The translations under genes and the position numbers were made by a program. Below the pieces are notes generated by a model. That model saw only the letters and a list, made by a program, of their open reading frames with translations. It was not told where the DNA came from and made no database searches. Of a stretch of 34,324 bases of DNA, positions 1,895 through 17,519 are shown one piece after another. Position 1 is the stretch's first letter; each line of letters begins with the position of its first letter. This DNA comes from an uncultured Pelagibacteraceae bacterium (GTDB lineage: Bacteria > Pseudomonadota > Alphaproteobacteria > Pelagibacterales > Pelagibacteraceae): the NCBI GenBank assembly GCA_902519945.1, contig CABYLY010000009.1:1-34324 (forward strand), written 5' to 3'.

Positions 1895-2581
1895 TTAAAT
1901 ACTTTTTCCTATTTTTAATTTATACGAAACACCCATTGTTGAGGTTACAAAGGCTGACTTAACTAATTCACCTTTTACAGTATTGTTAGACTTTTCTTTC
2001 TCAAGAGTTTCAATTATTGCATTATAATTCTTAATTAGTTTATCATCAGCAAAAGATTTTTTACCGATACTTACACCAATATTTCCATCTTTATCATTTC
2101 TTATTTCTGCTTGACCAGATTTCGCATCTGTTATTGCTGTCTTTAAATCCTCAGTTACTGAACCTAGTTTTGGGTTAGGCATCAAGCCCTTTGGACCAAG
2201 CACTTTTCCTAATTTAGATAATTTAATCATCATAGAAGGTGTGCAAATCAATTTTTCAAAATTAATTTCTCCATTTTTAATCTTTTCAATAAAATCATCA
2301 CTCCCAACAATATCTGCACCAGCTGACTTTGCGTCAGCGGATTTTGAGTCCTCACAAACTACTGCAACTTTAACTTTTTTTCCTGAACCACCAGGAAGAT
2401 TTACTACAGTTCTTATATTAATCTCATTTTTCTTTTGTTTATTATTAATTTGAAAACTTAAATCAACCGACTCATCAAATTTTGTTGTGCAATTTTTTTT
2501 AATTATAGGAATTAATTTTTCAATTCCCTCAGCAGGTAATTCAGATGTTTTTTCTGGTAATTTTTTAAATCTTTTGGACAT
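1895..2581 (-). CDS. rplA: 50S ribosomal protein L1
   Basis: This 228-residue protein is L1 of the mobile stalk near the ribosomal E site; in many bacteria it also represses its own operon by binding the mRNA. The diagnostic L1 signature is visible around residues 120-150 (KLGKVLGPKGLMPNPKLG), preceded by a Gly-Ser-Gly-Lys-Lys-Val-Lys-Val-Ala-Val-type segment and followed by the IGVSIGKKSF-like stretch. Length is the family norm. Two bases separate it from rplK. No L1-binding mRNA mimic could be placed upstream of rplK, because nusG and rplK overlap there. Confidence 0.97.
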   Translation of the reverse strand: MSKRFKKLPEKTSELPAEGIEKLIPIIKKNCTTKFDESVDLSFQINNKQKKNEINIRTVVNLPGGSGKKVKVAVVCEDSKSADAKSAGADIVGSDDFIEKIKNGEINFEKLICTPSMMIKLSKLGKVLGPKGLMPNPKLGSVTEDLKTAITDAKSGQAEIRNDKDGNIGVSIGKKSFADDKLIKNYNAIIETLEKEKSNNTVKGELVKSAFVTSTMGVSYKLKIGKSI

Positions 2582-2583
2582 TA

Positions 2584-3015
2584 TTAATCTTTAACCTCAA
2601 TACCCATAGATCTCGCTGAGCCCGCAATAATTTTTACTGCCTGTTCTAAATCTATAGCATTTAAATCATTCATCTTTTGTTTAGCGATTTCCTCTGCTTG
2701 TTTTTTGGTAATAGATGCTACTATATTTCTACCTGGTTCTTTTGAACCACTTTTTAATTTAGCTGCTTCTCTTATGAAAAAAGATGCTGGTGGTGATTTA
2801 ATCTTGAAATCAAATTTTTTATCTTTATAAACCGTAATTTCCACAGGAACAGGTTTCCCTGCTAATGATTTAGTTTTATCATTAAAAGCTTTACAAAACT
2901 CCATAATATTTACTCCTCTTTGACCTAAAGCAGGTCCTACAGGGGGAGCTGGGTTTGCTTGACCTCCTTTTATTTGTAATTTTATAAATCCACTTATTTC
3001 TTTTTTTGCTGCCAT
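2584..3015 (-). CDS. rplK: 50S ribosomal protein L11
   Basis: This 143-residue protein binds the GTPase-associated region of 23S rRNA and forms the base of the factor-binding centre. It shows the L11 hallmarks: the N-terminal [20 protein letters not shown] segment with [15 protein letters not shown], and a C-terminal RNA-binding domain ending [15 protein letters not shown]. The start ATG shares one base with the nusG stop (TAATG arrangement), so translation is probably coupled to nusG. rplA follows after 2 bases. Confidence 0.98.
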
Positions 3016-3545
3016 TAACTAATTTTTTCCACTTGGTTATATTCTAATTCAACAGGAGTAGGTCTACCAAAAATAGATACTGAAACTTTTAACTTAGATT
3101 TCTCTTCGTCAATTTCTTCAACCATTCCACTAAATGATGCGAAAGGACCATCAACAACCTGAACTTTTTCACCAACAGTATATTCTATACCAGACTTTGG
3201 TTGCGCTACACCATCTTTTATTTGTCCTAAAATCTTTTCAATTTCTTTGTCGGAAACAGGTACTGGCATTCCTTTAGTACCTAAAAAACCACTTACTCTT
3301 TTAATGTTCTTTATCATGTGGTAAATACTGTTATCCATCTCACTTTTAATTAAAACATATCCTGGAAAATATTTTTTTTTTCTTTGTATTCTTTTTCCTC
3401 TTTTGACTTCTGTAACATCATGAGTTGGAACAATTATTTCATCAAATTTATCAGCTATTTTTGCTTTATCAGCCTCTTCTTTTATAAGACCAGCTACTTT
3501 ATTTTCAAAACTCGAGTGCGATTGAACAATATACCAGTTTTTCAT
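3015..3545 (-). CDS. nusG: Transcription termination/antitermination factor NusG
   Basis: NusG (176 residues) rides on RNA polymerase, suppresses pausing and links it to Rho or to the leading ribosome. The N-terminal NGN domain begins [15 protein letters not shown] and contains the FPGYVLIK segment near residue 65; the C-terminal KOW domain contains [19 protein letters not shown] at about 125-145. Length is normal. The ATG shares a base with the secE stop and its stop shares a base with the rplK start, so secE-nusG-rplK form a coupled string. This is the standard bacterial order. Confidence 0.98.
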
Positions 3546-3736
3546 TATATGCTCACTTTAAGAAGTATATCCAAAAAAAATTTCAAAAGTTGATCTAACA
3601 ATAGAAAAAAAAGTGACATCACTACCGCCATTGCAAAAACCATTAAGGCTCCTTGCAAGGTTTCTTTGCCAGTTGGCCAAGTAACTTTAAATGCCTCTTG
3701 TTTTACTTCTTGTATAAATTTAATCGGGTTTCTCAT
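3545..3736 (-). CDS. secE: Preprotein translocase subunit SecE
   Basis: A 63-residue single-span membrane protein that clamps the SecY channel in the inner membrane. The short form typical of alphaproteobacteria is seen: an amphipathic N-terminal helix with KFIQEVKQEAFKVTWPTGKE, then one hydrophobic helix (about residues 32-55). The start chosen is the ATG at 3734-3736. The frame runs open for 25 more codons upstream, but that extension is the complement of tRNA-Trp and cannot be protein. The gene lies directly after tRNA-Trp and is joined to nusG by a one-base overlap. Confidence 0.95.
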   Translation of the reverse strand: MRNPIKFIQEVKQEAFKVTWPTGKETLQGALMVFAMAVVMSLFFLLLDQLLKFFLDILLKVSI

Positions 3737-3750
3737 AATTTTTTTATATA

Positions 3751-3826
3751 TGGCAGGAGCGGAGGGACTCGAACCCTCAGCCTCCGGTTTTGGAGACCGG
3801 CGCTCTACCAATTGAGCTACACTCCT
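3751..3826 (-). tRNA. trnW: tRNA-Trp (CCA anticodon)
   Basis: A 76-base cloverleaf on the minus strand: acceptor AGGAGTG pairs with CGCTCCT, the D arm is AGCTC..GAGC, the anticodon stem CCGGT/ACCGG encloses the loop CTCCAAA (anticodon CCA), and the T loop is TTCGAGT. The 3' CCA is encoded. It sits between tuf and secE, 9 bases after the tuf stop and 14 before the secE start, so it must be cut from a shared transcript. Confidence 0.97.
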
Positions 3827-3827
3827 A

Positions 3828-3845
3828 TATAGAGTTTACTCTATA
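3828..3845 (-). promoter_or_regulatory. Hairpin enclosing the tuf stop codon
   Basis: A perfect 7-bp inverted repeat (TATAGAG and CTCTATA) has a 4-base loop that contains the TAA stop of tuf. It ends directly before tRNA-Trp and no U-run follows, so a processing or mRNA-end-protecting element is more likely than a terminator. The role is inferred from position only. Confidence 0.45.
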
Positions 3846-5026
3846 ATTTTCGTTACGACTCCAGCTCCAACTGTTCTTCCACCTTCACGTATCGCAAAAT
3901 TTAATTTTTCTGACATCGCAATTGGTGTAATTAATTTAACTGTAAATTTGGCATCGTCACCAGGCATAACCATTTCTGTTCCAGCTGGTAATTCAACTTC
4001 ACCTGTTACATCTGTAGTTCTAAAATAAAACTGTGGTCTATATTTAGTAAAAAATGGAGTATGTCTTCCACCCTCTTCTTTTTTAAGAACATAGGCTTGA
4101 GCTTCAAATTTAGTATGTGGAGTAACTGATCCTGGTTTACACAAAACTTGACCTCTCTCAATATCTGTTCTTTCAACACCTCTTAAAAGAACTCCAACAT
4201 TATCACCTGCCTCACCTGAATCTAATAGTTTTCTAAACATTTCTACACCAGTACATACTGATTTTTTTGTTTCTCTAATTCCAACTATTTCTAATTCATC
4301 ACCAGTTTTAAGAACACCCGACTCTACTCTTCCAGTTGCAACTGTTCCTCTTCCTGAAATTGAAAAAACATCCTCAACTGGCATCAAGAAATCTTTGTCT
4401 TTAGGTCTGTCAGGTTGTGGAATAAATTCATCAACATTTTTCATCAATTCTAAGATTGAATTTTTACCAATCTCATCATCTCTACCCTCAACTGCTGCAA
4501 GTGCTGAACCTTTTGCAATTGGAGTTTTGTCTCCAGGAAATTTATAAGAAGTAAGCAATTCTTTAATTTCCTCTTCAACTAAATCGATCATTTCTTTATC
4601 GTCAACTTGATCCACTTTATTCAAGTATACACAAATTGCTGGAACACCAACTTGTCTTGCTAATAGAATATGCTCTCTAGTTTGTGGCATAGGACCATCA
4701 GCTGCATTAACTACTAAAATGGCACCATCCATTTGAGCAGCACCAGTAATCATATTTTTTACATAGTCAGCGTGACCAGGACAGTCAACGTGTGCATAGT
4801 GTCTTTTCTCTGTTTCATATTCAACGTGAGCAGTTGAAATTGTAATCCCTCTCTCTTTTTCCTCTGGAGCTTTATCAATCTGATCATACGCTACTGCCTG
4901 TGCACCACCAGTTTCAGATAAAACTTTTGTGATAGCAGCTGTTAAAGTTGTTTTACCGTGGTCCACATGACCAATTGTACCAATGTTACAATGCGGTTTA
5001 TTTCTTACAAATTTTTCTTTTGACAT
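3836..5026 (-). CDS. tuf: Elongation factor Tu
   Basis: EF-Tu (396 residues) delivers aminoacyl-tRNA to the ribosome as a GTPase. The G1 P-loop GHVDHGKT is at 19-26, the switch region holds RGITI, G3 is DCPGH, and G4 NKVD lies near residue 136; the two beta-barrel domains run to the conserved [12 protein letters not shown] close to the C terminus. Codon use is less AT-biased than in neighbouring genes, as expected for a very highly expressed protein. It is placed between tRNA-Gly and tRNA-Trp ahead of secE. It has one of the few clear Shine-Dalgarno sequences in the window. Confidence 0.99.
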
Positions 5027-5032
5027 TACTTA

Positions 5033-5039
5033 TTTCCTC
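5033..5039 (-). promoter_or_regulatory. Strong ribosome binding site of tuf
   Basis: GAGGAAA lies 6 bases upstream of the tuf ATG on the minus strand. It is worth noting because most genes in this window have no recognisable Shine-Dalgarno sequence; its presence here fits the very high expression of EF-Tu. Confidence 0.7.
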
Positions 5040-5066
5040 ATATTTATTTTTTGTTCAATTTTTTCT

Positions 5067-5140
5067 TGGAGCGGGTAAAGGGAATCGAACCCTTACATCC
5101 AGCTTGGAAGGCTAGCGTTCTACCATTGAACTACACCCGC
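5067..5140 (-). tRNA. trnG: tRNA-Gly (TCC anticodon)
   Basis: A 74-base cloverleaf on the minus strand: acceptor GCGGGTG pairs with TACCCGC, the anticodon stem CTAGC/GCTGG encloses the loop CTTCCAA (anticodon TCC), and the T loop is TTCGATT. The 3' CCA is encoded. It lies between tRNA-Tyr and tuf, the usual tRNA-Tyr/tRNA-Gly/tuf/tRNA-Trp order. Confidence 0.97.
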
Positions 5141-5185
5141 ACAACCCCAAGAGTTTCACTCCAGTTTACTTAAAACTTTATTAAA

Positions 5186-5271
5186 TGGTGGAGGGGGAAA
5201 GATTCGAACTTTCGAAGACCGAAGTCAACGGGTTTACAGCCCGCCCCATTTGACCGCTCTGGAACCCCTCC
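5186..5271 (-). tRNA. trnY: tRNA-Tyr (GTA anticodon)
   Basis: An 86-base class II tRNA with a long variable arm, on the minus strand. Acceptor GGAGGGG pairs with CCCCTCC, the anticodon stem GCGGG/CCCGT (one G-U pair) encloses the loop CTGTAAA (anticodon GTA), and the T loop is TTCGAAT. The 3' CCA is encoded. It is the first structural gene of the tRNA-tuf-secE-nusG-ribosomal transcript. Confidence 0.97.
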
Positions 5272-5275
5272 TTTT

Positions 5276-5289
5276 GGGGAAGTGTCCCC
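5276..5289 (-). promoter_or_regulatory. GC-rich hairpin just upstream of tRNA-Tyr
   Basis: A 5-bp stem (GGGGA/TCCCC) with a 4-base loop lies 4 bases before the 5' end of tRNA-Tyr on the minus strand. In DNA this AT-rich, a run of four G-C pairs stands out. It could guide RNase P or exonuclease processing of the leader. Function is not shown by sequence. Confidence 0.4.
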
Positions 5290-5319
5290 TTGTTCAATAA
5301 AGCTTCAAACAACATGCGT

Positions 5320-5347
5320 TTTATATATTTTATTTGTCCAAATGCAA
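5320..5347 (-). promoter_or_regulatory. Candidate sigma-70 promoter for the tRNA-Tyr/tuf operon
   Basis: On the minus strand TTGCAT (5342-5347) and TATAAA (5320-5325) are 16 bases apart, giving a predicted start near 5313 and a leader of about 40 bases before tRNA-Tyr. The region also separates this operon from the divergent rlmB gene. It was found by eye in AT-rich DNA, so chance matches are possible; no convincing promoter for rlmB was seen in the same 130-base gap. Confidence 0.5.
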
Positions 5348-5401
5348 CACGTGATTTAACAAGAAAATAATCAAAAAAACGTGTAAAACCTGGTTAAATT
5401 T

Positions 5402-6148
5402 ATGAATAAATCATCATTTTTTATTGTTGGGCAGCATGCTGTTATAGAGGCTCTTAGAAACCCTAAAAGAAAGGTTTTGAGGATTTTTTTAACAGAGGAA
5501 AGTAAAAAAAATATTCACAGACATAGTCCAAACAAAAACCTTCTAAATGACGTAAAGGTTTATTTTAAAACTAAAAAAGAATTAGATAAATACAGCACTA
5601 AAGAAAATTTACTTCATCAAGGTTATGTAGCTGAGATAGAACATTTGGAAAAACCAATCCTTAAAGAATTTATAAAAAATAAAAATAATATCACTTTAGT
5701 TTGTTTAGATGGAGTAACAGATCCTAGAAATATTGGTGCTGTAATTAGAAGTGCTACATCTTTTGATATAGATGGAATCATTATTAAAGAAAGACATTTT
5801 CCAAGTGAAAGTAAATTAATGTACAAGGCCTCAAGTGGAGCAATTGAGTATATGAATATTTTTGAAGTATCAAATATAAATTCTACCTTGAAAAATCTTA
5901 AAGATAAAAATTTTTGGGTTTATGGCTTTGATAGTAGCAGTAATAAAGATTTTACAAATATAAAATGGAAAGGAAATAATATTCTTTTATTCGGGTCTGA
6001 AGGTTTTGGTATGCATAAACATACATCTAAATATGCAGATTTTTTAGTAAAAATAGATATTGATAATAAGATAGAAAGCTTAAATATATCAAATAGTGCT
6101 GCAATAGTGTTTCATCACTTAAGTTATCTTAAAAAAATAGTTGATTAA
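5402..6148 (+). CDS. rlmB: 23S rRNA 2'-O-methyltransferase, TrmH/RlmB family
   Basis: This 248-residue SPOUT-class enzyme probably methylates the 2'-OH of a guanosine in 23S rRNA (Gm2251 in E. coli) using S-adenosylmethionine. An N-terminal substrate-binding domain begins VGQHAVIEALRN (9-20). The three trefoil-knot motifs follow: NIGAVIRSA (110-118), GSEGFGM (198-204) and SLNISNSAA (226-234). Length matches RlmB (about 245). It is divergent from the tRNA-tuf operon, and tRNA-Thr follows 29 bases after its stop. Assignment to RlmB rather than another TrmH relative rests on the N-terminal domain. Confidence 0.88.
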   Translation: MNKSSFFIVGQHAVIEALRNPKRKVLRIFLTEESKKNIHRHSPNKNLLNDVKVYFKTKKELDKYSTKENLLHQGYVAEIEHLEKPILKEFIKNKNNITLVCLDGVTDPRNIGAVIRSATSFDIDGIIIKERHFPSESKLMYKASSGAIEYMNIFEVSNINSTLKNLKDKNFWVYGFDSSSNKDFTNIKWKGNNILLFGSEGFGMHKHTSKYADFLVKIDIDNKIESLNISNSAAIVFHHLSYLKKIVD

Positions 6149-6177
6149 TTAACAAATACTTAATAGTTATTGCGCAT

Positions 6178-6253
6178 GCCCTTGTAGCTCAGCTGGTAGA
6201 GCAATTGATTTGTAATCAATAGGTCCGCGGTTCGAATCCGTGCGGGGGCACCA
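6178..6253 (+). tRNA. trnT: tRNA-Thr (TGT anticodon)
   Basis: A 76-base cloverleaf on the plus strand: acceptor GCCCTTG pairs with CGGGGGC (two G-U pairs), the anticodon stem ATTGA/TCAAT encloses the loop TTTGTAA (anticodon TGT), and the T loop is TTCGAAT. The 3' CCA is encoded. It follows rlmB and ends 10 bases from the converging surface-protein gene. Confidence 0.97.
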
Positions 6254-6263
6254 CTCTACTTTA

Positions 6264-8384
6264 CTAAAAATTATTACTAATAGTTACGTTTGTATTGTAA
6301 TCGGGAATATCACTAAATAGATTATAAGTTGAGTTTACTTTTAAATCATAATTGTTTATTTTATTTGTAAATTCTAAATTTGTTATATTTGAGTTATCAA
6401 TTTCAAATGATAGTTTCATGTCATCAATTGGAACATATCCAAATAGTAAATAAAACTCATTATAATATCCTTTACCACTAGCACCATATCTTTCAAAATT
6501 TGTAACTACTGACCAGCCTGTAATTGAGGTTACATCAAAACCATAACCAATCCTGTAATTGTGCTTAGATTTATTATTCGTTCTATAGTCATAGAATGTA
6601 CTTGAATCATTTATATAATAAAATTCTGCATTTGATGAAGGACTTAAATCTCCTACATATTCTAATCTTCCATGATGATTAGTTGTTTTTTCATCTTGTT
6701 GATTTGTAGTATCAAAAAGTACTCCAATTGTGGCTAGGGCAGATTTAATGTTTTGATCTTTATAAATCAATGCATCAGATAAACTATTTCCTAGCGTTGT
6801 TTTTTCTCTAAAAGCTTTTAATTGTGTGTATCCTAGATCAATTTTTATCCCTGGATTATAATTAAATTTTTCATCATGTAATCGTTTGCCAAAATTAATT
6901 GACCCATAAATCTGTTGTCCCTCCCTATTACCTTTTAAAGTATTTCCATTTATTACTCTTTTATGATCAACGTGTAATAAGCTTAAACCAACTACACCAT
7001 CTGTAAAAATTTCATTATCCCTAATTTTAGTTCCATATAGTGCTAAACTATAAGTATCTGTGTTTAGTTTTGTACCTTCCCCACCAATATCAACATTGTC
7101 ATTTCCATACTGAAAAACATAACCATACATCGTATCTCTGTCATCTTTTTTTATTTTATCTGCGCCTAATGAAATACCATAACTTTGAATATCTCTTGAG
7201 GATCCGCTTTTAGCACTCTTTTTACCTAAACTTAGTCGCCCCTCACTCCATCCGAACCAATCATCACTACTATAAGTTCTATCTTTTTCTTTTTTAAGAG
7301 TATTAAGAGCACTTACTAATCTTGCAACTTTTTGATTTGTAAAATCAATTTCAGCGTTCAAATTTGAGAGGTCGTCCTTATTTTTATGTCTCCTTAACCA
7401 TTCAGTTCTATGAAAAACGGGAAGTGTATTATTTTTTATAATACGTTTAGCTGACTCAACATTTGCTTCAATAATAGCTTTTACATCATCGTTAGTTGAT
7501 GCATCAACACAACTTATAGTTCCAGCACAGTCCACATCATATTCATAAATTGTATCCAACGTATCTCCCGTAACATATAGTTTTGTGAAATTTGATGAAA
7601 AATGAAATCCTCTCATAGTCCCTGTTTGAGAACTTACTGAAAAGGTTGTTGCTTGAAGAGTAATTGATGTAATATCGTAAGGTGCGGCCAACGAATATCT
7701 TTTAATATCATCATCTTCATTTCCTCCAAGATATAAAGTATTTCCATCTGCACTTAATTGTATATTTCTAACCTGTTCTTCATCAAAACTTGAACATACT
7801 TGATTAGTTGCTGTCGAAATATCCCAAGGGGTAGTTAAATCATATTGCCCAACTTTTTTATTTCCTTGACTAGCAACAAACACTCGGGTTCCATCGGGTT
7901 TAAAATCTAAACCTCTTTGCTGAACACTATCAAAGCATCCTGTCCTTATATTTTTAAAAGTAGTCCAAGATATAGTTGTCGTATCCCAGGGTGTAGAAAG
8001 TGTAAATTGTTCGATTGAAACTCTAGTACTACTATCACTTCGAATAATATACATCTCTGTCCCATCAGGCTTAAACTCAATTGCATGAGGATTGTCTATA
8101 ACTGATACAAGACCACCTTCAGTAACTGCTAAAAGTGTTTTTTTTGGGTTACTTGCAGTTGTTACGTCGAAAGGTGTTGTTAAGGTATACTCAATCACAT
8201 TTTGTGCGCCAGGATCTCTATCTTCGGTAACATATAGTCGCGTTCCATCAGGTTTAATAAAAATTCCTCTTAAACGACTAGTGTCCTCAGAAATATCTTT
8301 AGATTGTTTAAATTGTAAATTAGCAAATGAGTAAGAACTCATTAGAGTCAAAAAAAACACAATGAATAAAAAAGTTTTTTTCAT
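6264..8384 (-). CDS. Beta-propeller surface protein with autotransporter-like barrel (paralogue A)
   Basis: This 706-residue protein appears to be an outer-membrane protein that displays a beta-propeller. A signal peptide (1-21, cleavage after SFA) is followed by five repeats of 49-61 residues built on KPDGT-x-x-Y/F-V and Y-x-L-T/S-T-P-F/W-D-x-T-T; the Asp of each DG turn is at 46, 107, 164 and 213, with a degenerate fifth near 264. After a Cys pair (286, 292) comes a linker with EWLRRHK at 328-334. From about 376 a beta-strand-rich region (WSEG, GYVFQYGND, YGT, LGYTQL) runs to a C-terminal Phe, as in PF03797-type barrels that end in a BAM signal. The ligand is unknown. A paralogue lies at 9372-11495. 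It starts 30 bases after nadK and may share its transcript. Confidence 0.75.
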   Translation of the reverse strand: MKKTFLFIVFFLTLMSSYSFANLQFKQSKDISEDTSRLRGIFIKPDGTRLYVTEDRDPGAQNVIEYTLTTPFDVTTASNPKKTLLAVTEGGLVSVIDNPHAIEFKPDGTEMYIIRSDSSTRVSIEQFTLSTPWDTTTISWTTFKNIRTGCFDSVQQRGLDFKPDGTRVFVASQGNKKVGQYDLTTPWDISTATNQVCSSFDEEQVRNIQLSADGNTLYLGGNEDDDIKRYSLAAPYDITSITLQATTFSVSSQTGTMRGFHFSSNFTKLYVTGDTLDTIYEYDVDCAGTISCVDASTNDDVKAIIEANVESAKRIIKNNTLPVFHRTEWLRRHKNKDDLSNLNAEIDFTNQKVARLVSALNTLKKEKDRTYSSDDWFGWSEGRLSLGKKSAKSGSSRDIQSYGISLGADKIKKDDRDTMYGYVFQYGNDNVDIGGEGTKLNTDTYSLALYGTKIRDNEIFTDGVVGLSLLHVDHKRVINGNTLKGNREGQQIYGSINFGKRLHDEKFNYNPGIKIDLGYTQLKAFREKTTLGNSLSDALIYKDQNIKSALATIGVLFDTTNQQDEKTTNHHGRLEYVGDLSPSSNAEFYYINDSSTFYDYRTNNKSKHNYRIGYGFDVTSITGWSVVTNFERYGASGKGYYNEFYLLFGYVPIDDMKLSFEIDNSNITNLEFTNKINNYDLKVNSTYNLFSDIPDYNTNVTISNNF

Positions 8385-8414
8385 TTAAATTTCACTACAG
8401 TGGTCTATTTTATT

Positions 8415-9185
8415 TCAAGATGTTTCTCTTCTTATTTGTTCTATTTTAATTTTCTTTTGTAAACTTCTATTTTTGTCATATAAAAGATTAAATTTAATAT
8501 TCTTATTTGTTTTAATTATTATTTTTTTTGCATTTCTTACTTCAATATTATCAGCTACTGCACTAATAGGTCTTTTTTTAGCATTAAGATTTTTAATAGT
8601 TATTTTAGATCTATCACTTACTATTTTGCCTTTCCATCTTCGTGGTCTAAAAGCACTGATTGGTGAAATTGACAGCTTTTTTGAATTGAGACCCAAAATA
8701 GGTCCATGCACTGATAGATTATAAGCTGTACTGCCAGCTGGTGTAGAAACTAAAACACCATCAGAAACTAAATTTTTAATTAGTTTTTTTGATCCATAAT
8801 CTATTGATAGCGACGCTGCTTGACGGCTTTGTCTTAAGATTGACACTTCATTAATGGCTATATGTTTTTTACTTAGATTACTTTTATTGCTAACAGTCAT
8901 TTCTAGTGGCGAAATAGAAATCATTTTAGCTTTTGACAAATTTTTGATTAAATTTTTTGATGAATATTTGTTCATCAAGAAACCATAGTTTCCTGAATTT
9001 ATTCCATAAAAAGATTTTTTTGAATTTCTATTCTTTTTTAAAGTTTGAAGCATAAAACCATCACCACCAATAACAATTATTAGATTAGATCTCTTTATTT
9101 CATTTCTTTTTAATATTTTTACTAATGATCTTTTTATATTTGATGATCTGTTATTCTTGTCAGAAATAATTTGGATCTTACTCAT
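8415..9185 (-). CDS. nadK: NAD kinase
   Basis: This 256-residue cytosolic enzyme phosphorylates NAD to NADP. The family motifs are present in order: VIGGDG at 38-43 with FMLQTLK after it, the Gly-rich GINSGNYGFL (61-70), and the SDGVLVSTPAGSTAYNLS block that forms the nucleotide site. The start used is the ATG at 9183-9185; a 14-codon upstream extension is excluded because it is the complement of tRNA-Leu. Length is slightly short (usual 255-300), in line with streamlining. The gene is wedged between tRNA-Leu (5 bases upstream) and paralogue A of the surface-protein pair (30 bases downstream). Confidence 0.95.
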   Translation of the reverse strand: MSKIQIISDKNNRSSNIKRSLVKILKRNEIKRSNLIIVIGGDGFMLQTLKKNRNSKKSFYGINSGNYGFLMNKYSSKNLIKNLSKAKMISISPLEMTVSNKSNLSKKHIAINEVSILRQSRQAASLSIDYGSKKLIKNLVSDGVLVSTPAGSTAYNLSVHGPILGLNSKKLSISPISAFRPRRWKGKIVSDRSKITIKNLNAKKRPISAVADNIEVRNAKKIIIKTNKNIKFNLLYDKNRSLQKKIKIEQIRRETS

Positions 9186-9190
9186 TTTAA

Positions 9191-9276
9191 TGGTGCCCTC
9201 GGCCAGACTCGAACTGGCACTCCGCAAGCGGCAAGGATTTTAAGTCCTTTGTGTCTACCAATTTCACCACGAGGGC
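9191..9276 (-). tRNA. trnL: tRNA-Leu (TAA anticodon)
   Basis: An 86-base class II tRNA on the minus strand: acceptor GCCCTCG pairs with CGAGGGC, the anticodon stem AAGGA/TCCTT encloses the loop CTTAAAA (anticodon TAA), there is a long variable arm, and the T loop is TTCGAGT. The 3' CCA is encoded. It lies 5 bases before nadK and about 95 bases after paralogue B of the surface-protein pair. Confidence 0.97.
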
Positions 9277-9308
9277 ATTAATGAATTTCATGAGTATTTA
9301 TGCCAATA

Positions 9309-9337
9309 TTTATAATTGAACAAGAGTAATAAGTAAA
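9309..9337 (-). promoter_or_regulatory. Candidate promoter for tRNA-Leu/nadK
   Basis: On the minus strand TTTACT (9332-9337) and TATAAA (9309-9314) are 17 bases apart, with a predicted start about 25-30 bases before tRNA-Leu. It is the best match in the 95-base gap after the paralogue B stop. No stem long enough for an intrinsic terminator of paralogue B is visible there (only a 4-bp CTAG/CTAG repeat). This is a by-eye match in AT-rich DNA. Confidence 0.35.
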
Positions 9338-9371
9338 TTTTTTTATCTTATCCAATCTAGATCCTAGTTTG

Positions 9372-11495
9372 TTAAAATGTACTTACAATTTCTAGGTTTG
9401 CACCATATTCAGGTATTTGACTCATTAAGCTATAATTCGAACTCATTCTGATATCGAAACTATTTAAATCTTTCTCATAACTCAATGATGCTTTGTCATT
9501 ATCTAAAGTCATAGCATATTCAATATTGTCTGTTGGTATATAACCAAATCCCAAATATAAAGTATCACTATGAGCATTGTCACTTTGATTTCTCTCATAA
9601 ATAGTCATTATAGAAAAACCATTATCGGTTACTAAATCAAATCCAATATTTGCTATTAAGTTTTTTGAGTCTTGATCAATTGATTTTGTATATTCTGTAG
9701 TTTCCGATAGGTAACGATAAGTAGCATCTGAAGACGGACTAAAATCTACTCCAAGCTCTAATCCACCATTTGGTTTAAAAGTAAAAGTATTAAAATTTAA
9801 AATGTCACTGATGGTAAAGCCAGCAGATATCATTCCAGTTTCAATTGTTTGAGCTTTGTAAACTAAAGCTGCAGGGCCTTTTTCTCTATATTCGGACAAT
9901 TCTGTATAGCTTAAATCAATTCTTAAATTAGGAATAATATTCAAATCTTCTTTTTTATATTTTGTTAAGTAGTTAAGTGAGCCAAATATTTGTGCACCAT
10001 TTCTCTTTCCTGATCTGGTACTTCCCCCCCCTTTTCTAACATGATCAGTCTTTAAAGTGCTCACTCCAATGATACCTTCGGTAAATTTTTTATCATCATG
10101 TGGAAAAGTTCCATAAACAGATAAACTAAAAGACTCAGTGTCTAAATTAGTTCCAGATGTGCCGACATCGACTTCGTCATTACCAAATCTAAGAGCATAA
10201 CCGTATAATCTATTTTTGCTTATCTTTTTATCCATGCCAAGTGTAAAACCTTTGGTATTAATTTTTTTAGATGATGAAGTAGATGTATCTCCAGTTCTAC
10301 CAATACTTACACTACCCTCACTCCAAAATGACCAATGATCTGATAATTTGTCTAGAACTTCATTTGTTTTATTTGATATAGGAATAATGTTAGAAAGCGA
10401 TGCCACCATTGAATTAGAAAAGTTTAATCTTATATTTTGGTTACTTAATTGATCATTGGTTCTATGTCTTCTTAACCAATACATACGGTTAAGGACTGGA
10501 GTACTTGCTTGGATAGCAATTTGCTTTGCTGTTGCAGTTTGAGACTCGATTGAGCTTAAAATATCTTTACCCTCATCAGAAGTAGTTATTGGATCATCAC
10601 AAGCACCATCAATTACACTCCAATCACAACTTAGGTTAAATTCATGAACTTTATCATTATCATCATCAATGATAAACATTTTACTTCCATCATTACTAAA
10701 CACAACTTCTCTTGAATCTCCACTAACAGAACTTACAGTATAAGTGCCTTCAAGTGATAAAGTAGAAACATCATAAGGTGTAGTTAATTTAAACTGATTC
10801 ATCAAATCTAGTGCTAAAGATGGAACTTCGGAATTCATTAATGTAATGGTATACATTTTAGTACCATCGTAATTAAAAGTAACTCCATCTATGTGATTTT
10901 GAAAAGAAATTAGGTCTTCAGTATTAAGTTGGGTAACTCCTGAGCTAAGATCAAATGCTGTATCTAGTGAAAATTCATGAACACGCACTTGTAAATCATT
11001 TCCTACTCCAGCAATAAACATTCTGGTCCCATCATTATTAAATGCAATTGAATTAGCTCTTTGTTCTTTACCAACGAGACTATAAAAGCCATCAAATGAA
11101 GCAGTTGAAACATCAAATGCAGTGGTTAGTGACCAGTAATCTACTGACCTTCTACCACCATGGTTAACAATAAACATTTTTGTTCCATCGTTATTGAACA
11201 CTACTTGTGTTGGTACATGAGAGGCGTCACCTCCACTTACATGTACTACTTTAGTATTATTTACGGTTGCCGTTGAAATATCATATGCGGTAGTTAATGT
11301 ATGTTCGATAACTGCATCGACTTTTAATTCACTTCTTAAAGTATACATTTTTGTTCCATCATTATTGAACGTTAATCCAAAATAAGTGGATGCCTCGATT
11401 GATTTGCTTTGCACAAAGGTTGGCTCCGCTATAGCTTTGGAAAAAAATAAAGCTAAAAAAAATATGATGAAATGAATTTTATAAATATTTTTCAC
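9372..11495 (-). CDS. Beta-propeller surface protein with autotransporter-like barrel (paralogue B)
   Basis: This 707-residue protein has the same plan as paralogue A. A signal peptide (1-23, cleavage after AIA) is followed by five propeller repeats with FNNDGTKM-x-x-I and L-T-T-A/P-F/Y-D-x-S-T motifs; the DG aspartates are at 46, 103, 155, 210 and 269. A Cys pair (290, 299) and a YWLRRHR block (339-345) lead into a barrel-like region from about 388 (FWSEGSVSIG, GYALRFGND, YGT, DLSYTEL, GVDFSPSSDA) that ends in Phe. The start is a GTG at 11493-11495; an in-frame TGA lies just upstream and no closer ATG keeps the signal peptide. The repeats are more regular than in A. It is expected at the outer membrane; ligand and role are unknown. 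Confidence 0.75.
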   Translation of the reverse strand: MKNIYKIHFIIFFLALFFSKAIAEPTFVQSKSIEASTYFGLTFNNDGTKMYTLRSELKVDAVIEHTLTTAYDISTATVNNTKVVHVSGGDASHVPTQVVFNNDGTKMFIVNHGGRRSVDYWSLTTAFDVSTASFDGFYSLVGKEQRANSIAFNNDGTRMFIAGVGNDLQVRVHEFSLDTAFDLSSGVTQLNTEDLISFQNHIDGVTFNYDGTKMYTITLMNSEVPSLALDLMNQFKLTTPYDVSTLSLEGTYTVSSVSGDSREVVFSNDGSKMFIIDDDNDKVHEFNLSCDWSVIDGACDDPITTSDEGKDILSSIESQTATAKQIAIQASTPVLNRMYWLRRHRTNDQLSNQNIRLNFSNSMVASLSNIIPISNKTNEVLDKLSDHWSFWSEGSVSIGRTGDTSTSSSKKINTKGFTLGMDKKISKNRLYGYALRFGNDEVDVGTSGTNLDTESFSLSVYGTFPHDDKKFTEGIIGVSTLKTDHVRKGGGSTRSGKRNGAQIFGSLNYLTKYKKEDLNIIPNLRIDLSYTELSEYREKGPAALVYKAQTIETGMISAGFTISDILNFNTFTFKPNGGLELGVDFSPSSDATYRYLSETTEYTKSIDQDSKNLIANIGFDLVTDNGFSIMTIYERNQSDNAHSDTLYLGFGYIPTDNIEYAMTLDNDKASLSYEKDLNSFDIRMSSNYSLMSQIPEYGANLEIVSTF

Positions 11496-12370: not shown

Positions 12371-13723
12371 TTATCTACCGTTTTTTATTGGATCTATTAA
12401 AAGTTTTTTAACATTATATTTATATTTTCCGTCATTATAATGAATTGAATTAATTACAACTATTCTTGAATTTTCGACATCTATTAGAATTGCATTTCCT
12501 CCCCTACCAGCTAAGCCAAATACTGTTCTATTTTTTAATCCAGGGTAATCAAAATGGAATTGACCACCATATGACTTTGTACGGTTAAATTCTGGTTCAA
12601 CGTATTTTTTATTACCACCTGCTTGCATTTTACCATGCATATTTTTCGGTATTCTTCTTTCATGAATTTCTCTTAAATATTTACCAACACATGTATTATT
12701 TTGGTAATCATCCATCATAGCTTTTGCAAGTCTAAGCCAATCATGTCTAGTTAACCGGACCATAGAATGACCAATTCCCCATTCCTCAGAACCACTGTTC
12801 ATTTCAACAAATTGTACGTTGTGTTTGTTTTTAACTTTATTTTGAAAAATTTTGTTTAAAAATACTTTATAATTATCACCAGTTTTATGTCTTATGTAAT
12901 TATGAAGAATCATAGTAATTAAACCATTGTAGTTATAAACGCTTTTTGATTTTTCAGTATTTTGAAAATAGAAACCTATTGTGGTGTAAATATTATTTAC
13001 TTGATAATCGTAATCATTGTCTGCTTTTATGCCAGCACCATCTCCCCACTCGTAAATAACTTTTTGGTCACCAGGAGCCATATTTAACATATCAATTAAT
13101 TTTTGGTTATTATAAAGTGAAGTTTCTAAAACAGGCCAATCATCAATTGTGCTATCAATATTATCTATATAACCTTCACATATTGCATGACCTAAAATAT
13201 AGGACATCACAGATTTACCCATCGACATTGAAATTAACCTTGTTTCATCATTTACAAATTCTCCTAGTTTTTCTTTAGGAGAAATTTCATCTATCAATAT
13301 CTTTCCGTCTTGGAAGTATAAGTAGCTTAAAATACCTTTCGCTTTAACTTGTTTTTTTACAAATTTATCTTCTTGGCGATCAAATTCGAATTGATAAGGT
13401 TCATTAGCAGGTTTAATTTCGATTGGTTTCCATGAGTATGTATTAGGATCGCCAGTTAAATGACTAAAATTATATCTATAAAAATAATAAATTAATGTAT
13501 CGCGATTAGGATTTTTTTTATAAGGAATCTTCCATAACCTTTCACTTACTTTTAGTTTTAAATTATGTCTTGGAACCCCTTTTGCATCAGTATCTACATA
13601 TTGATTATATCCATTATCCAATAACCATTTAGTAAAAGTAGGATGAGAGCTTTTAGGATCTTTAGCTAATAGATGATTTGGTATCAAAAATATAATAAAT
13701 AGAATTGCAAATATTTTTTTCAT
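12371..13723 (-). CDS. Exported serine hydrolase, beta-lactamase/NylB-like fold
   Basis: This 450-residue protein has a signal peptide (1-20, cleavage after LLA) and the SxxK motif of the class C beta-lactamase/penicillin-binding superfamily: S167-M-G-K170 in SMSMGKSVMS. A Tyr/Asn-rich stretch, VYNYNGLI at 262-269, stands where the YxN motif is expected. Near the C terminus GLAGRGGNAILIDVE replaces the usual KTG-type box, as in 6-aminohexanoate-dimer hydrolase relatives (GxGGQ). It is therefore probably a periplasmic or envelope esterase/amidase rather than a true beta-lactamase; the substrate is unknown. It is divergent from the glucosylglycerate operon across only 39 bases. Confidence 0.72.
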   Translation of the reverse strand: MKKIFAILFIIFLIPNHLLAKDPKSSHPTFTKWLLDNGYNQYVDTDAKGVPRHNLKLKVSERLWKIPYKKNPNRDTLIYYFYRYNFSHLTGDPNTYSWKPIEIKPANEPYQFEFDRQEDKFVKKQVKAKGILSYLYFQDGKILIDEISPKEKLGEFVNDETRLISMSMGKSVMSYILGHAICEGYIDNIDSTIDDWPVLETSLYNNQKLIDMLNMAPGDQKVIYEWGDGAGIKADNDYDYQVNNIYTTIGFYFQNTEKSKSVYNYNGLITMILHNYIRHKTGDNYKVFLNKIFQNKVKNKHNVQFVEMNSGSEEWGIGHSMVRLTRHDWLRLAKAMMDDYQNNTCVGKYLREIHERRIPKNMHGKMQAGGNKKYVEPEFNRTKSYGGQFHFDYPGLKNRTVFGLAGRGGNAILIDVENSRIVVINSIHYNDGKYKYNVKKLLIDPIKNGR

Positions 13724-13762: not shown

Positions 13763-14569
13763 ATGGATAAAAAATTTACAATCGTAATTTTTACTGATTT
13801 AGATGGTTCTCTTTTACATAGAGATACCTTTAAATTCGATACAATCAAAGATTATATAAAAAGTCTTATAAATAAAGGTGTAATTATTATTCCAAATTCT
13901 AGCAAAACAGAGAAAGAAATTGAAAAATTCAATGAAGAGCTTGGAGTAAATCTACCTTATATCTCAGAAAATGGATCATCTATTCATGGATTAAATTTAA
14001 TCACGTCTAACTTTCCAGATAAACTTGTTCTCAGTAGAGAGAAAGAGGAATTATTGAAGATTTTTGAAAATAAAGTTCCTGAAAAATTAAAGGAGAAATG
14101 TTTACAAATTTCAAAAATGAGTAAAAAAGAAAAAGAAAATATATTGGGGCAAAAAGATGAGAAGCTTAAAGATGCTTTAAATAGAAAATATACTTTACCT
14201 TTTTTATTTAATGGGGACAAAAATGAAAAAAATAGATTATTAAAAATATTAAATTCAAATTCTTTATCTCTTCAGGAAGGCGGGCGTGTATCTAATCTTT
14301 GTGATAATATTAACAAAGTAAAATCGATGAATAGAGTTATAAAAATTTTAAAAAAAACTGAGGATAAAATTAAAACAATAGCAGTTGGTGACAATTTCAA
14401 TGATTTAGAAATGCTAAGAAACTGTGATATTCCTTGTTTAGTATTTAATGATCAGTTTACGTTAGATCAAATTAATATTGAAAATCTTGTATTTTCAAAC
14501 AAGCCATCACCTGAGGGCTGGGCTGATGTGATTAAAATAGCCCTAGTTAAATTAGGCTTTAAAGACTAA
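13763..14569 (+). CDS. Glucosyl-3-phosphoglycerate phosphatase (HAD, MpgP family)
   Basis: This 268-residue HAD-superfamily phosphatase has the nucleophile motif FTDLDGSL (D12 and D14) and a C-terminal VGDNFNDLEML that supplies the metal-binding acids. The insert between them matches the mannosyl-3-phosphoglycerate phosphatase/YedP type. Members of this family remove phosphate from mannosyl- or glucosyl-3-phosphoglycerate. Because the next gene looks like a GT81 glucosyl-3-phosphoglycerate synthase rather than a mannosyl (GT55) enzyme, glucosylglycerate is the likely product. It is the first gene of the operon, 8 bases from the next start. Substrate is inferred from context. Confidence 0.82.
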   Translation: MDKKFTIVIFTDLDGSLLHRDTFKFDTIKDYIKSLINKGVIIIPNSSKTEKEIEKFNEELGVNLPYISENGSSIHGLNLITSNFPDKLVLSREKEELLKIFENKVPEKLKEKCLQISKMSKKEKENILGQKDEKLKDALNRKYTLPFLFNGDKNEKNRLLKILNSNSLSLQEGGRVSNLCDNINKVKSMNRVIKILKKTEDKIKTIAVGDNFNDLEMLRNCDIPCLVFNDQFTLDQINIENLVFSNKPSPEGWADVIKIALVKLGFKD

Positions 14570-14577
14570 AAAACCGC

Positions 14578-15798
14578 ATGAGTGATTTTTCACAAAATGG
14601 AGTAATCTCCACCTTGCATGACTTTGGCACAAAGTCTACTTCAGTTATTGAAAGTGAATTATTAAAATTTTCTGAACAGAGAAAAATGGAATTAATTTTA
14701 CCGTGTCTTTATTCTGAATTAGAGGGTACAGCTCTACCTAAAATAGTTGAAGAGATTAGTAAAACTAAATATCTAGATCACATAATTATTGGATTAGATA
14801 AAGCTAATGAAACACAAGCCAAAAAAGCTTGGAAATTTTTTAAAAAATTAAAAACTCCTTTTTCAATTCTTTGGAACGATGGTCCAAAGTTAAAAAAACT
14901 TGATCAAGAACTCCAAAAAAATAATCTTGCACCAAGTGAACTTGGTAAAGGAAGAAATGTCTGGTATTGCATTGGTATGTGTATTGCACGAGATAGTGCT
15001 CGTTCAGTTGCCTTACATGATTGTGATATTAAAACTTACGACAGAAGAATGCTTGCAAAACTTTTTTATCCTGTAGTTAATCCACTTTTTAACTTTGAAT
15101 TTTGTAAAGGATACTATCCAAGAGTGGCTAATGACAAAATGAACGGCAGAGTAGCTAGGTTACTTGTTTTTCCATTTTTAACTGCGCTAGAAAAAACAAT
15201 TGGTAACAGTGATTATCTAGAGTTCATGAAATCTTTTAAATATCCTTTAGCGGGTGAATTTTCTTTTAGAAGAAATGTTTTACCAGAGCTAAGAATATCT
15301 TCAGATTGGGGTATTGAAGTTGGTATTTTATCAGAAATGCAAAGAAGTTTTTCACCACAAAATATTTGTCAGGTTGATCTAGCTGATACTTACGACCACA
15401 AACATCAGGTTCTTTCAATTGATGATGAAACAAAAGGATTATCTAGAATGTCTATCGATATTATTAAAACTTTTATAAAAAAACTAGCTACTCAAGGTAA
15501 TACCTTCAGTAGAGAAAAATTTAGATCATTGAAAGCCACATATTACAGATCAGCACTTGATTTAATTGATATTTATAGAAGTGATGCATATATGAATGGA
15601 CTTAAATTTGATTCACATACTGAAGAAAAAGCTGTAGAGTTATTCGCAATAAATATTATGAAAGCTGGAGAAGCTTTTATATTAAACCCAATGGATACAC
15701 CTTTTATACCTACATGGAGCAGAGTAAAAAGTGCTATACCAGATTTTCTTGGAAGGTTAGAAAAAGTAGTAAATGAAGATAATAAAAAATACACTTGA
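14578..15798 (+). CDS. gpgS: Glucosyl-3-phosphoglycerate synthase (GT81)
   Basis: This 406-residue GT-A glycosyltransferase should join glucose from an NDP-glucose donor to 3-phosphoglycerate. Recognisable parts are the N-terminal FSQNGVISTLHDFGT, the donor-site segment LPCLYSELEG (41-50), GKGRNVWY (123-130) and the DxD-type metal motif HDCDIKTYD with D148 and D150. These resemble the bacterial/archaeal GpgS group that pairs with an MpgP-type phosphatase. Length is near that group's norm (about 390-410). Its TGA overlaps the next ATG (TGATG), so the downstream phosphorylase is probably translationally coupled. Mannosyl transfer is the main alternative and is less likely on the motifs. Confidence 0.85.
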   Translation: MSDFSQNGVISTLHDFGTKSTSVIESELLKFSEQRKMELILPCLYSELEGTALPKIVEEISKTKYLDHIIIGLDKANETQAKKAWKFFKKLKTPFSILWNDGPKLKKLDQELQKNNLAPSELGKGRNVWYCIGMCIARDSARSVALHDCDIKTYDRRMLAKLFYPVVNPLFNFEFCKGYYPRVANDKMNGRVARLLVFPFLTALEKTIGNSDYLEFMKSFKYPLAGEFSFRRNVLPELRISSDWGIEVGILSEMQRSFSPQNICQVDLADTYDHKHQVLSIDDETKGLSRMSIDIIKTFIKKLATQGNTFSREKFRSLKATYYRSALDLIDIYRSDAYMNGLKFDSHTEEKAVELFAINIMKAGEAFILNPMDTPFIPTWSRVKSAIPDFLGRLEKVVNEDNKKYT

Positions 15799-17519
15799 TG
15801 TTATCTCAAATAACCCAAAAAAAAATAAGATCTAAACTAAAAAATATTTACCAGCCTACTTCTTTAAAATCAGAAATTGATTTGATAAATAAAGAGATAA
15901 TCCAAATCATAAGAAAATTTAATAATCAAAACTCCAAAAAAAATAAAATAATTTCTGAAAAAACATCTATGGTGATTTGCTATGGTGATAGTTTACAATC
16001 TAATAATCAAAAATATCTTATTAAAAATTTTCAAAACTTTTATCAAAAAAAGTTAAAAAAATATTTTAATACTATTCATTTTTTACCATTCTACCCATCT
16101 AGCAGTGACAGCGGATTTGCAGTTAAAGATCATTATAAAGTTGATAACAAAATTGGTACTTGGTCAGATTTAAAAAATATTTCTAAAAAATGCGATATCA
16201 TGGCTGATATAGTAATTAATCATTCATCAGCTCGAGGTCTTTGGTTTAAGAATTTTTTGAAAGAAAAAAGACCAGGAAAAAATTATTTTTTAACAGTGGG
16301 CTCTAAATTTAATACCTCAAAAGTAGTAAGGCCTCGAGATCATAAATTACTCAAGAAAATTGATTTCTTTAATAAAAAGGACTTTCTGTGGAGAACTTTT
16401 AGTCCCGATCAAATTGATCTAAATTTTTATAATCCTAATGTTCTATTAAGATTTATTAAAATTATGATTAACCTCATTAATCATGGTATTACAATTTTTA
16501 GATTAGATGCGATCGCTTATCTTTGGAAACAAAGTGGTACCAAGTGTATTAATCTCAAACAAACACACGAAATAGTTAAGCTTCTAAGAATTATTTGTAA
16601 TAATTTAAAAGTTAAAACTTTAATAGTGACTGAAACAAATTTACCCGAAAAAGAAAATCTGAGTTATTTAGGTAAAAATGATGAAGCAAATTGGATTTAC
16701 AATTTTTCACTACCTCCGTTACTTATACATGCATTTTTATTTGAAGATAGTTCTTACTTGGTAAAATGGAGCAAGAATTTACCCAAATTAACAAATGACA
16801 ATTGTTATCTTAACTTTATAGCATCACATGATGGTATTGGTATAAGACCTACCGAAGGAATTTTAAATAACAACACACTTAAAAAATTTCTCAAGCGACT
16901 CAAAAAAAATGGCTCTAAATTCTCTTTTAGAAAAATTGATAAGAAATCAAAAAAAGTTTATGAGGCTAACATCACAATTTTTGATGCCCTTAAAAAAAGT
17001 GATTATGATAAAAAAGGTAAATTCTTATTAGAAAGATATATTTCAGCACACGCGATCATGATTGCTTTTGAAGGGGTTCCAGCAATTTACTTTAATTCAT
17101 TGTTCGGTACTTCTAATGATGAAGCAAAATTTGTAATTACTGGCAATAACAGAGATGTTAATAGATATAAATGGAATATACAAAATATTTTAAATAAACT
17201 TAAAAATAAAGAGTCAAAACAAAGTAATTTTTATCAAAATATTACTCATTTATTAAATATAAGAAGAAAACAAAAAGCATTTCATCCTAACGGTGCAAGA
17301 TATAATTTAAATTTTGGCTCAAAAATTTTTGCGTTTAAAAGAATAAGTTTAGATAAAAAACAATCTATAATTTGTATTACAAATCTGTCATCAAAAATAC
17401 AAAATATCACGTTAAATAAAACTTATCTTCGCTGGAAAAATTTAATTAAACTACAAAGTAAATTTGATAAACAATTAGTATTGGGGCCTTTTGAAACTAT
17501 TTGGCTAAGTAATAAATGA
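15798..17519 (+). CDS. GH13_18 sugar phosphorylase, probable glucosylglycerate phosphorylase
   Basis: This 573-residue alpha-amylase-fold enzyme belongs with the sucrose phosphorylase group. The nucleophile Asp is D237 in IFRLDAIAYLW, the acid/base Glu is E279 in VTETN, and the third acid is D345 in ASHDGIGIRP. The segment YLWKQSGTKCINLKQTHE (241-258) is the form I associate with glucosylglycerate phosphorylases and E. coli YcjM rather than with true sucrose phosphorylases. Reversible phosphorolysis would give glucose 1-phosphate and glycerate. A TTG codon directly precedes the ATG, but the ATG that overlaps the gpgS stop is the more natural start. Context with gpgS strongly favours glucosylglycerate as substrate; sucrose is the alternative. 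Confidence 0.82.
   Translation: MLSQITQKKIRSKLKNIYQPTSLKSEIDLINKEIIQIIRKFNNQNSKKNKIISEKTSMVICYGDSLQSNNQKYLIKNFQNFYQKKLKKYFNTIHFLPFYPSSSDSGFAVKDHYKVDNKIGTWSDLKNISKKCDIMADIVINHSSARGLWFKNFLKEKRPGKNYFLTVGSKFNTSKVVRPRDHKLLKKIDFFNKKDFLWRTFSPDQIDLNFYNPNVLLRFIKIMINLINHGITIFRLDAIAYLWKQSGTKCINLKQTHEIVKLLRIICNNLKVKTLIVTETNLPEKENLSYLGKNDEANWIYNFSLPPLLIHAFLFEDSSYLVKWSKNLPKLTNDNCYLNFIASHDGIGIRPTEGILNNNTLKKFLKRLKKNGSKFSFRKIDKKSKKVYEANITIFDALKKSDYDKKGKFLLERYISAHAIMIAFEGVPAIYFNSLFGTSNDEAKFVITGNNRDVNRYKWNIQNILNKLKNKESKQSNFYQNITHLLNIRRKQKAFHPNGARYNLNFGSKIFAFKRISLDKKQSIICITNLSSKIQNITLNKTYLRWKNLIKLQSKFDKQLVLGPFETIWLSNK

Follow-up and report, generated by a model that had tools for sequence, protein, structure and literature searches.

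A putative operon for making and breaking down glucosylglycerate in SAR11, and the interchange of its degrading enzyme across the Pelagibacteraceae

Gene sets that place the synthesis of the nitrogen-free osmolyte glucosylglycerate (GGA) beside its breakdown are already known, and the operon described here is one of this sort. Prochlorococcus carries a GGA metabolism operon in which genes for glucosyl 3-phosphoglycerate synthesis lie together with those for recycling GGA to glucose 1-phosphate, with a putative transporter adjacent (PMC11631117). The glucosylglycerate phosphorylases (GGaP, EC 2.4.1.352) of Meiothermus silvanus, Spirochaeta thermophila and Escherichia coli (YcjM) share membership of GH13_18, a (T/S)ETN motif and a glutamate in loop A; in other bacteria, GGaP is often encoded next to glucosyl-3-phosphoglycerate synthase (GpgS) and glucosyl-3-phosphoglycerate phosphatase (GpgP), and its proposed role is the regulation of intracellular levels (PMC7178133). 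The Pseudoalteromonas plasmid pPBSW1 (L165) holds a cluster of HAD protein, GpgS and sugar phosphorylase, and GGA is also removed by the GH63 glucosylglycerate hydrolases (GgH), such as the mycobacterial GgH and Thermus TTHA0978. For SAR11, GGA synthesis was reported in 2025 as an offshore trait (PMC12636525). In the literature searched, in which subscription journals were thinly covered, we found nothing on a SAR11 GGA phosphorylase, on its exchange for a hydrolase or on a GGA importer.

The window, by which we mean the whole stretch of 34,324 nucleotides analysed, lies on contig C9 of a SAR11 (Pelagibacteraceae) genome of 1.01 Mb in 36 contigs that is 78% complete. Three intact open reading frames on the + strand span positions 13763-17519, and together they very probably form an operon for making and breaking down GGA. 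They encode a GpgP-type HAD-IIB phosphatase (13763-14569, 268 residues), a GT81-type GpgS (14578-15798, 406 residues) and a GH13_18 GGaP (15798-17519, 573 residues from its ATG). The tight run given in the preliminary description is exact, with 8 bases between the phosphatase and GpgS frames and a one-base overlap, TGATG, between those of GpgS and GGaP; a TTG at 15795, three bases 5' of the ATG, is a possible alternative start for GGaP that would lengthen the overlap to four bases. A search of genome contigs placed the close relatives of the window exclusively among SAR11 (Pelagibacteraceae) single-cell or metagenome genomes. No phage record matched the GpgP-GpgS-GGaP locus, and an Rfam scan returned tRNAs only and no riboswitch.

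The likeness to the Prochlorococcus operon lies in the joining of synthesis and recycling genes, although organism and background are different and the window locus has no adjacent transporter, unlike its close relatives, in which a four-gene ABC cassette adjoins GpgP-GpgS-GGaP (L138-L140, L156-L158). The pPBSW1 cluster matches the window locus in its three functions and in their order, and its GpgS is 60% identical to that of the window, but its HAD protein is longer (annotated at 4263-6008) and its phosphorylase just 39% identical. GpgS and GpgP are frequent neighbours of the GGaP enzymes of M. silvanus, S. thermophila and E. coli, as they are here; the window enzyme, a predicted GGaP, is 34% identical to YcjM.

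In the proposed pathway, the donor for GpgS would be a nucleotide sugar, probably the UDP-glucose that the GalU homologue of the genome produces, and its glucose would be passed to 3-phosphoglycerate; the HAD phosphatase would then strip the phosphate from the resulting glucosyl-3-phosphoglycerate to leave GGA. When less osmolyte is needed, GGaP would use phosphate to split GGA into glucose 1-phosphate and D-glycerate, and glucose 1-phosphate could then be returned directly to NDP-glucose by GalU, the glycosyl group being regained for one UTP. We infer the enzyme activities, the sugar donor, the direction of flux and the physiological trigger of the operon. The GalU homologue scores 245 bits, below the cut-off of its model, and adjoins a UDP-glucose dehydrogenase; it could be the source of UDP-glucose as well as the route by which glucose 1-phosphate is reclaimed. 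The sole phosphoglucomutase-superfamily protein found in the 78%-complete genome is GlmM. Of the earlier proposal that glucose 1-phosphate and glycerate are recovered by phosphorolysis, the recovery half can be followed in the genome as far as the phosphorylase step; no glycerate kinase was found in the window genome. Searches for kinases of the GckA type (PF13660) and GlxK type (PF02595) found none in this genome or in 15-17 relatives, and a P-loop kinase of about 300 residues that resembles eukaryotic D-glycerate 3-kinase (GLYK-like), with weak matches to PF00485, occurs in 9 of 13 relatives but was not detected in the 78%-complete window genome. The nitrogen-saving role suggested in the preliminary description was borrowed from cyanobacteria; it is a reasonable suggestion that would fit the offshore occurrence of GGA synthesis in SAR11 (PMC12636525).

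The arrangement of the three genes recurs across 90 SAR11 loci with the synthase, most of which were picked by GpgS similarity, so that close relatives are over-represented. GpgP, GpgS and GGaP follow in immediate series in 83 of these loci, and of the 90, 81 have a GpgS-to-GGaP spacing of -1 base and five one of -4; this recurrence of order and spacing argues that the arrangement is conserved rather than a product of chance. The dN/dS values of the three genes against eight close relatives, about 0.02-0.29, indicate purifying selection, which is strongest on GpgS (0.02-0.05). HAD, GpgS and phosphorylase functions are also clustered in Leisingera and Qingshengfaniella, with the phosphorylase gene convergent to the others, as they are in Pseudoalteromonas; galU lies directly upstream of the Qingshengfaniella cluster.

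The survey of 197 Pelagibacteraceae genomes found GpgS in 38, true GGaP in 29 (a count that leaves out three short partial matches with E above 1e-5) and a GH63-like GgH in 60. GGaP accompanies GpgS in 25 of the 38 GpgS genomes, and 36 of the 38 carry exactly one of GGaP and GgH. An example of the second kind is G143 (L104), which has GpgS and no GGaP; behind its two synthesis genes come a MalK/UgpC-type ABC cassette and the gene of a GH63-like enzyme that matches the glucosylglycerate hydrolase model NF047898 at 317 bits (cut-off 550) and PDB 2z07 at E 5e-93. The homologue of GgH fills the place of GGaP in other SAR11, although it belongs to an unrelated fold family with hydrolytic chemistry; the window itself has no GgH. 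Not one genome carried both degraders, compared with 8.8 expected among the 197 (Fisher p 1.3e-5, shared ancestry ignored), and among genomes of 90% completeness or more an overlap of zero has a probability of 2.3e-4, again with shared ancestry ignored. The GpgS tree requires at least three switches between GGaP and GgH. Because two unrelated enzymes trade places behind the same synthase, both would be expected to act on GGA and not on sucrose, and we regard the interchange as strong context evidence for GGA as the putative substrate of each. Together with the family models, the matches to GpgS structures and the GGaP motifs, it leaves the function first proposed for the three window genes, the making and recovery of GGA, well supported.

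The four-gene ABC cassette is of the sugar type by family (MalK/UgpC-type), and its genomic company suggests that it likely imports GGA. Its binding protein, encoded in L093 at 5743-7065, was found in 77 of the 197 genomes, 73 of which carry GGaP or GgH; most of the degraders come with the cassette, many of them in genomes that lack GpgS, and cassette and degrader are adjacent in many genomes, GpgS-less ones included (e.g. L096-L098, L141-L144). Sorted by gene content, 13 genomes have synthase, importer and GGaP, nine have synthase, importer and GgH, 12 (that of the window among them) have synthase and GGaP with no importer detected, and two have synthase and GgH with no importer detected; importer and GgH alone occur in 47, importer and GGaP alone in four, and a few genomes hold incomplete sets. 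No importer turned up in the 78%-complete window genome, or in several relatives of 97-99% completeness.

These distributions bear on the purpose of the phosphorylase. The turnover buffer proposed in the preliminary description is one of two readings, the other being the scavenging of external GGA, and the family seems to do both. Degraders lie beside the likely importer in relatives without GpgS, so that in SAR11 this family of enzymes could just as naturally serve the catabolism of foreign GGA. The phosphorylase of the window might then serve mainly to consume GGA from other plankton, with its place behind the synthase a convenience of co-regulation and internal turnover secondary. In keeping with this, a degrader (GgH in 47, GGaP in four) and the cassette occur without GpgS in 51 of the 197 genomes, and GGaP lies directly beside the cassette in eight (G027, G128, G075, G177, G077, G098, G158 and G123). 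However, no importer was detected in the window genome or in 11 others with GpgS and GGaP, several of which are at least 97% complete, so that their phosphorylase would be limited to internal GGA or to GGA arriving by another carrier, and we consider a mainly catabolic role possible but doubtful for the window. We lean, with some reserve, towards a view of SAR11 as producers, recyclers and scavengers of GGA, in which the ABC cassette imports it, GGaP and GgH are interchangeable and GGA is a carbon currency shared with the picocyanobacteria; the window genome would be that of a producer and recycler without importer. At the ocean surface, no heterotroph is more abundant than SAR11. Should its oceanic lineages make, recycle and import a nitrogen-free osmolyte that Prochlorococcus also produces, a carbon flux so far overlooked, between the two commonest types of marine cell, could be put to the test, with named genes to assay and to follow in transcriptomes.

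A further question is the sugar that the synthase pair attaches. Each of the three proteins falls short of the curated cut-off of the most specific model that it matches. The phosphatase reaches 162.4 bits against TIGR01486 (MPGP), just below the cut-off of 164.75, and 65 bits against PF08282 (HAD Hydrolase_3), and its best PDB match is the mannosyl-3-phosphoglycerate phosphatase 1wzc; the TIGR01486 model cannot separate GpgP from MpgP. The best NCBIfam model for the synthase is NF040724 (GpgS_Meth), matched over the full length at 357 bits (E 1e-106), below its strict equivalog cut-off of 700, and a Pfam scan of the same frame gave no match. A profile built from close SAR11 GpgS sequences alone matched nothing in the PDB. 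When the distant homologues of Pseudoalteromonas, Leisingera and Qingshengfaniella were included, the GpgS structures 7pdo/7p5l, 4y6n and 4ddz ranked above the sole MpgS, 3f1y, with 7pdo at E 2.9e-8. AlphaFold models were poor, the alignments being shallow (mean pLDDT 53 for GGaP and 36 for GpgS). These matches support a predicted GpgS rather than a GDP-mannose synthase. The resemblance of the phosphatase to MpgP would also suit a pair in which it is a true MpgP and the product is mannosylglycerate or a mixed glycoside, and certain GT81 enzymes, such as that of Rubrobacter (3f1y), use GDP-mannose as well as GDP-glucose. Yet the best models and structures for the synthase are those of GpgS, and the neighbouring degraders are of the GGA type (GGaP and the NF047898 hydrolase), an argument weakened by the ability of GH63 hydrolase to act on mannosylglycerate too; we judge this alternative improbable.

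The phosphorylase scores 176 bits against TIGR03852 (sucrose phosphorylase; cut-off 334) and also matches PF00128, and its best PDB matches are GH13_18 sucrose and glucosylglycerol phosphorylases. GGaP is set apart from sucrose phosphorylase by the (T/S)ETN motif at strand beta5 and by the loop-A glutamate, which replaces a glutamine, and the Meiothermus enzyme binds glycerate through Asn275 and Glu383 (PMC7178133). We aligned the window protein with E. coli YcjM (NC_000913, annotated as glucosylglycerate phosphorylase) and five diverse SAR11 copies. Both signatures are invariant in this set, the first being T278-E279-T280-N281 in the window protein and the second E389, within KVYEAN (PYEINV in YcjM), as are the catalytic residues D237, E279 and D345. 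These features support the annotation of the window enzyme as a probable GGaP rather than a sucrose phosphorylase. That it instead has nothing to do with the synthase and phosphorolyses sucrose, sucrose 6-phosphate or glucosylglycerol, a reading for which the top-scoring named model and PDB entries speak, is very hard to credit and was rejected on motifs and genomic context, for the loop-A motifs of those classes are missing where both GGaP signatures are present, and the enzyme is mutually exclusive with GgH and keeps company with GpgS. The numbering of the window protein runs six residues ahead of that of the Meiothermus enzyme at both N281 and E389, and this common offset fits their being the counterparts of the two glycerate-binding residues.

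The glucosylglycerate phosphorylase (GGaP) and the GH63-like glucosylglycerate hydrolase were found to be mutually exclusive when compared across SAR11. At one of the compared loci, L104 (positions 1945-8223), the place taken by GGaP in the window is occupied by the GH63-like hydrolase together with a four-gene MalK-type ABC cassette. An ABC cassette, comprising an ATPase, a binding protein and two permeases, adjoins GGaP at L093 (positions 3251-10033), where the GpgP-GpgS pair lies approximately 22-24 kb away on the same contig; we consider this cassette probably to be a glucosylglycerate importer. At L111, in genome G181, GpgS and GGaP are preceded by two tandem GpgP-like genes, one sharing 54% identity with the window GpgP and the other 44%.

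The glycerate kinase that is missing from the pathway has a candidate in a 309-residue P-loop kinase encoded at SAR11 locus L164 (positions 1330-2256), which is similar to the eukaryotic-type D-glycerate 3-kinase (PDB codes 1odf, 6ckg and 7xpc).

The reverse-strand gene before the operon (window 12371-13723) encodes a secreted-looking protein of 450 residues, which gave no match in Pfam or NCBIfam at an E-value of 0.001; in SAR11 loci L110, L128 and L138, related genes (49-52% identity) are found next to the ABC cassette or a short distance from it. Further upstream, an NAD-kinase-like gene (window 8415-9227) is flanked by two large reverse-strand genes (window 6264-8384 and 9372-11495). Each of the two has a C-terminal autotransporter beta-domain, and the N-terminal part of one weakly matches a beta-propeller. 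The content of the interval from the NAD-kinase-like gene to CinA-SfsA differs strongly among SAR11 genomes.
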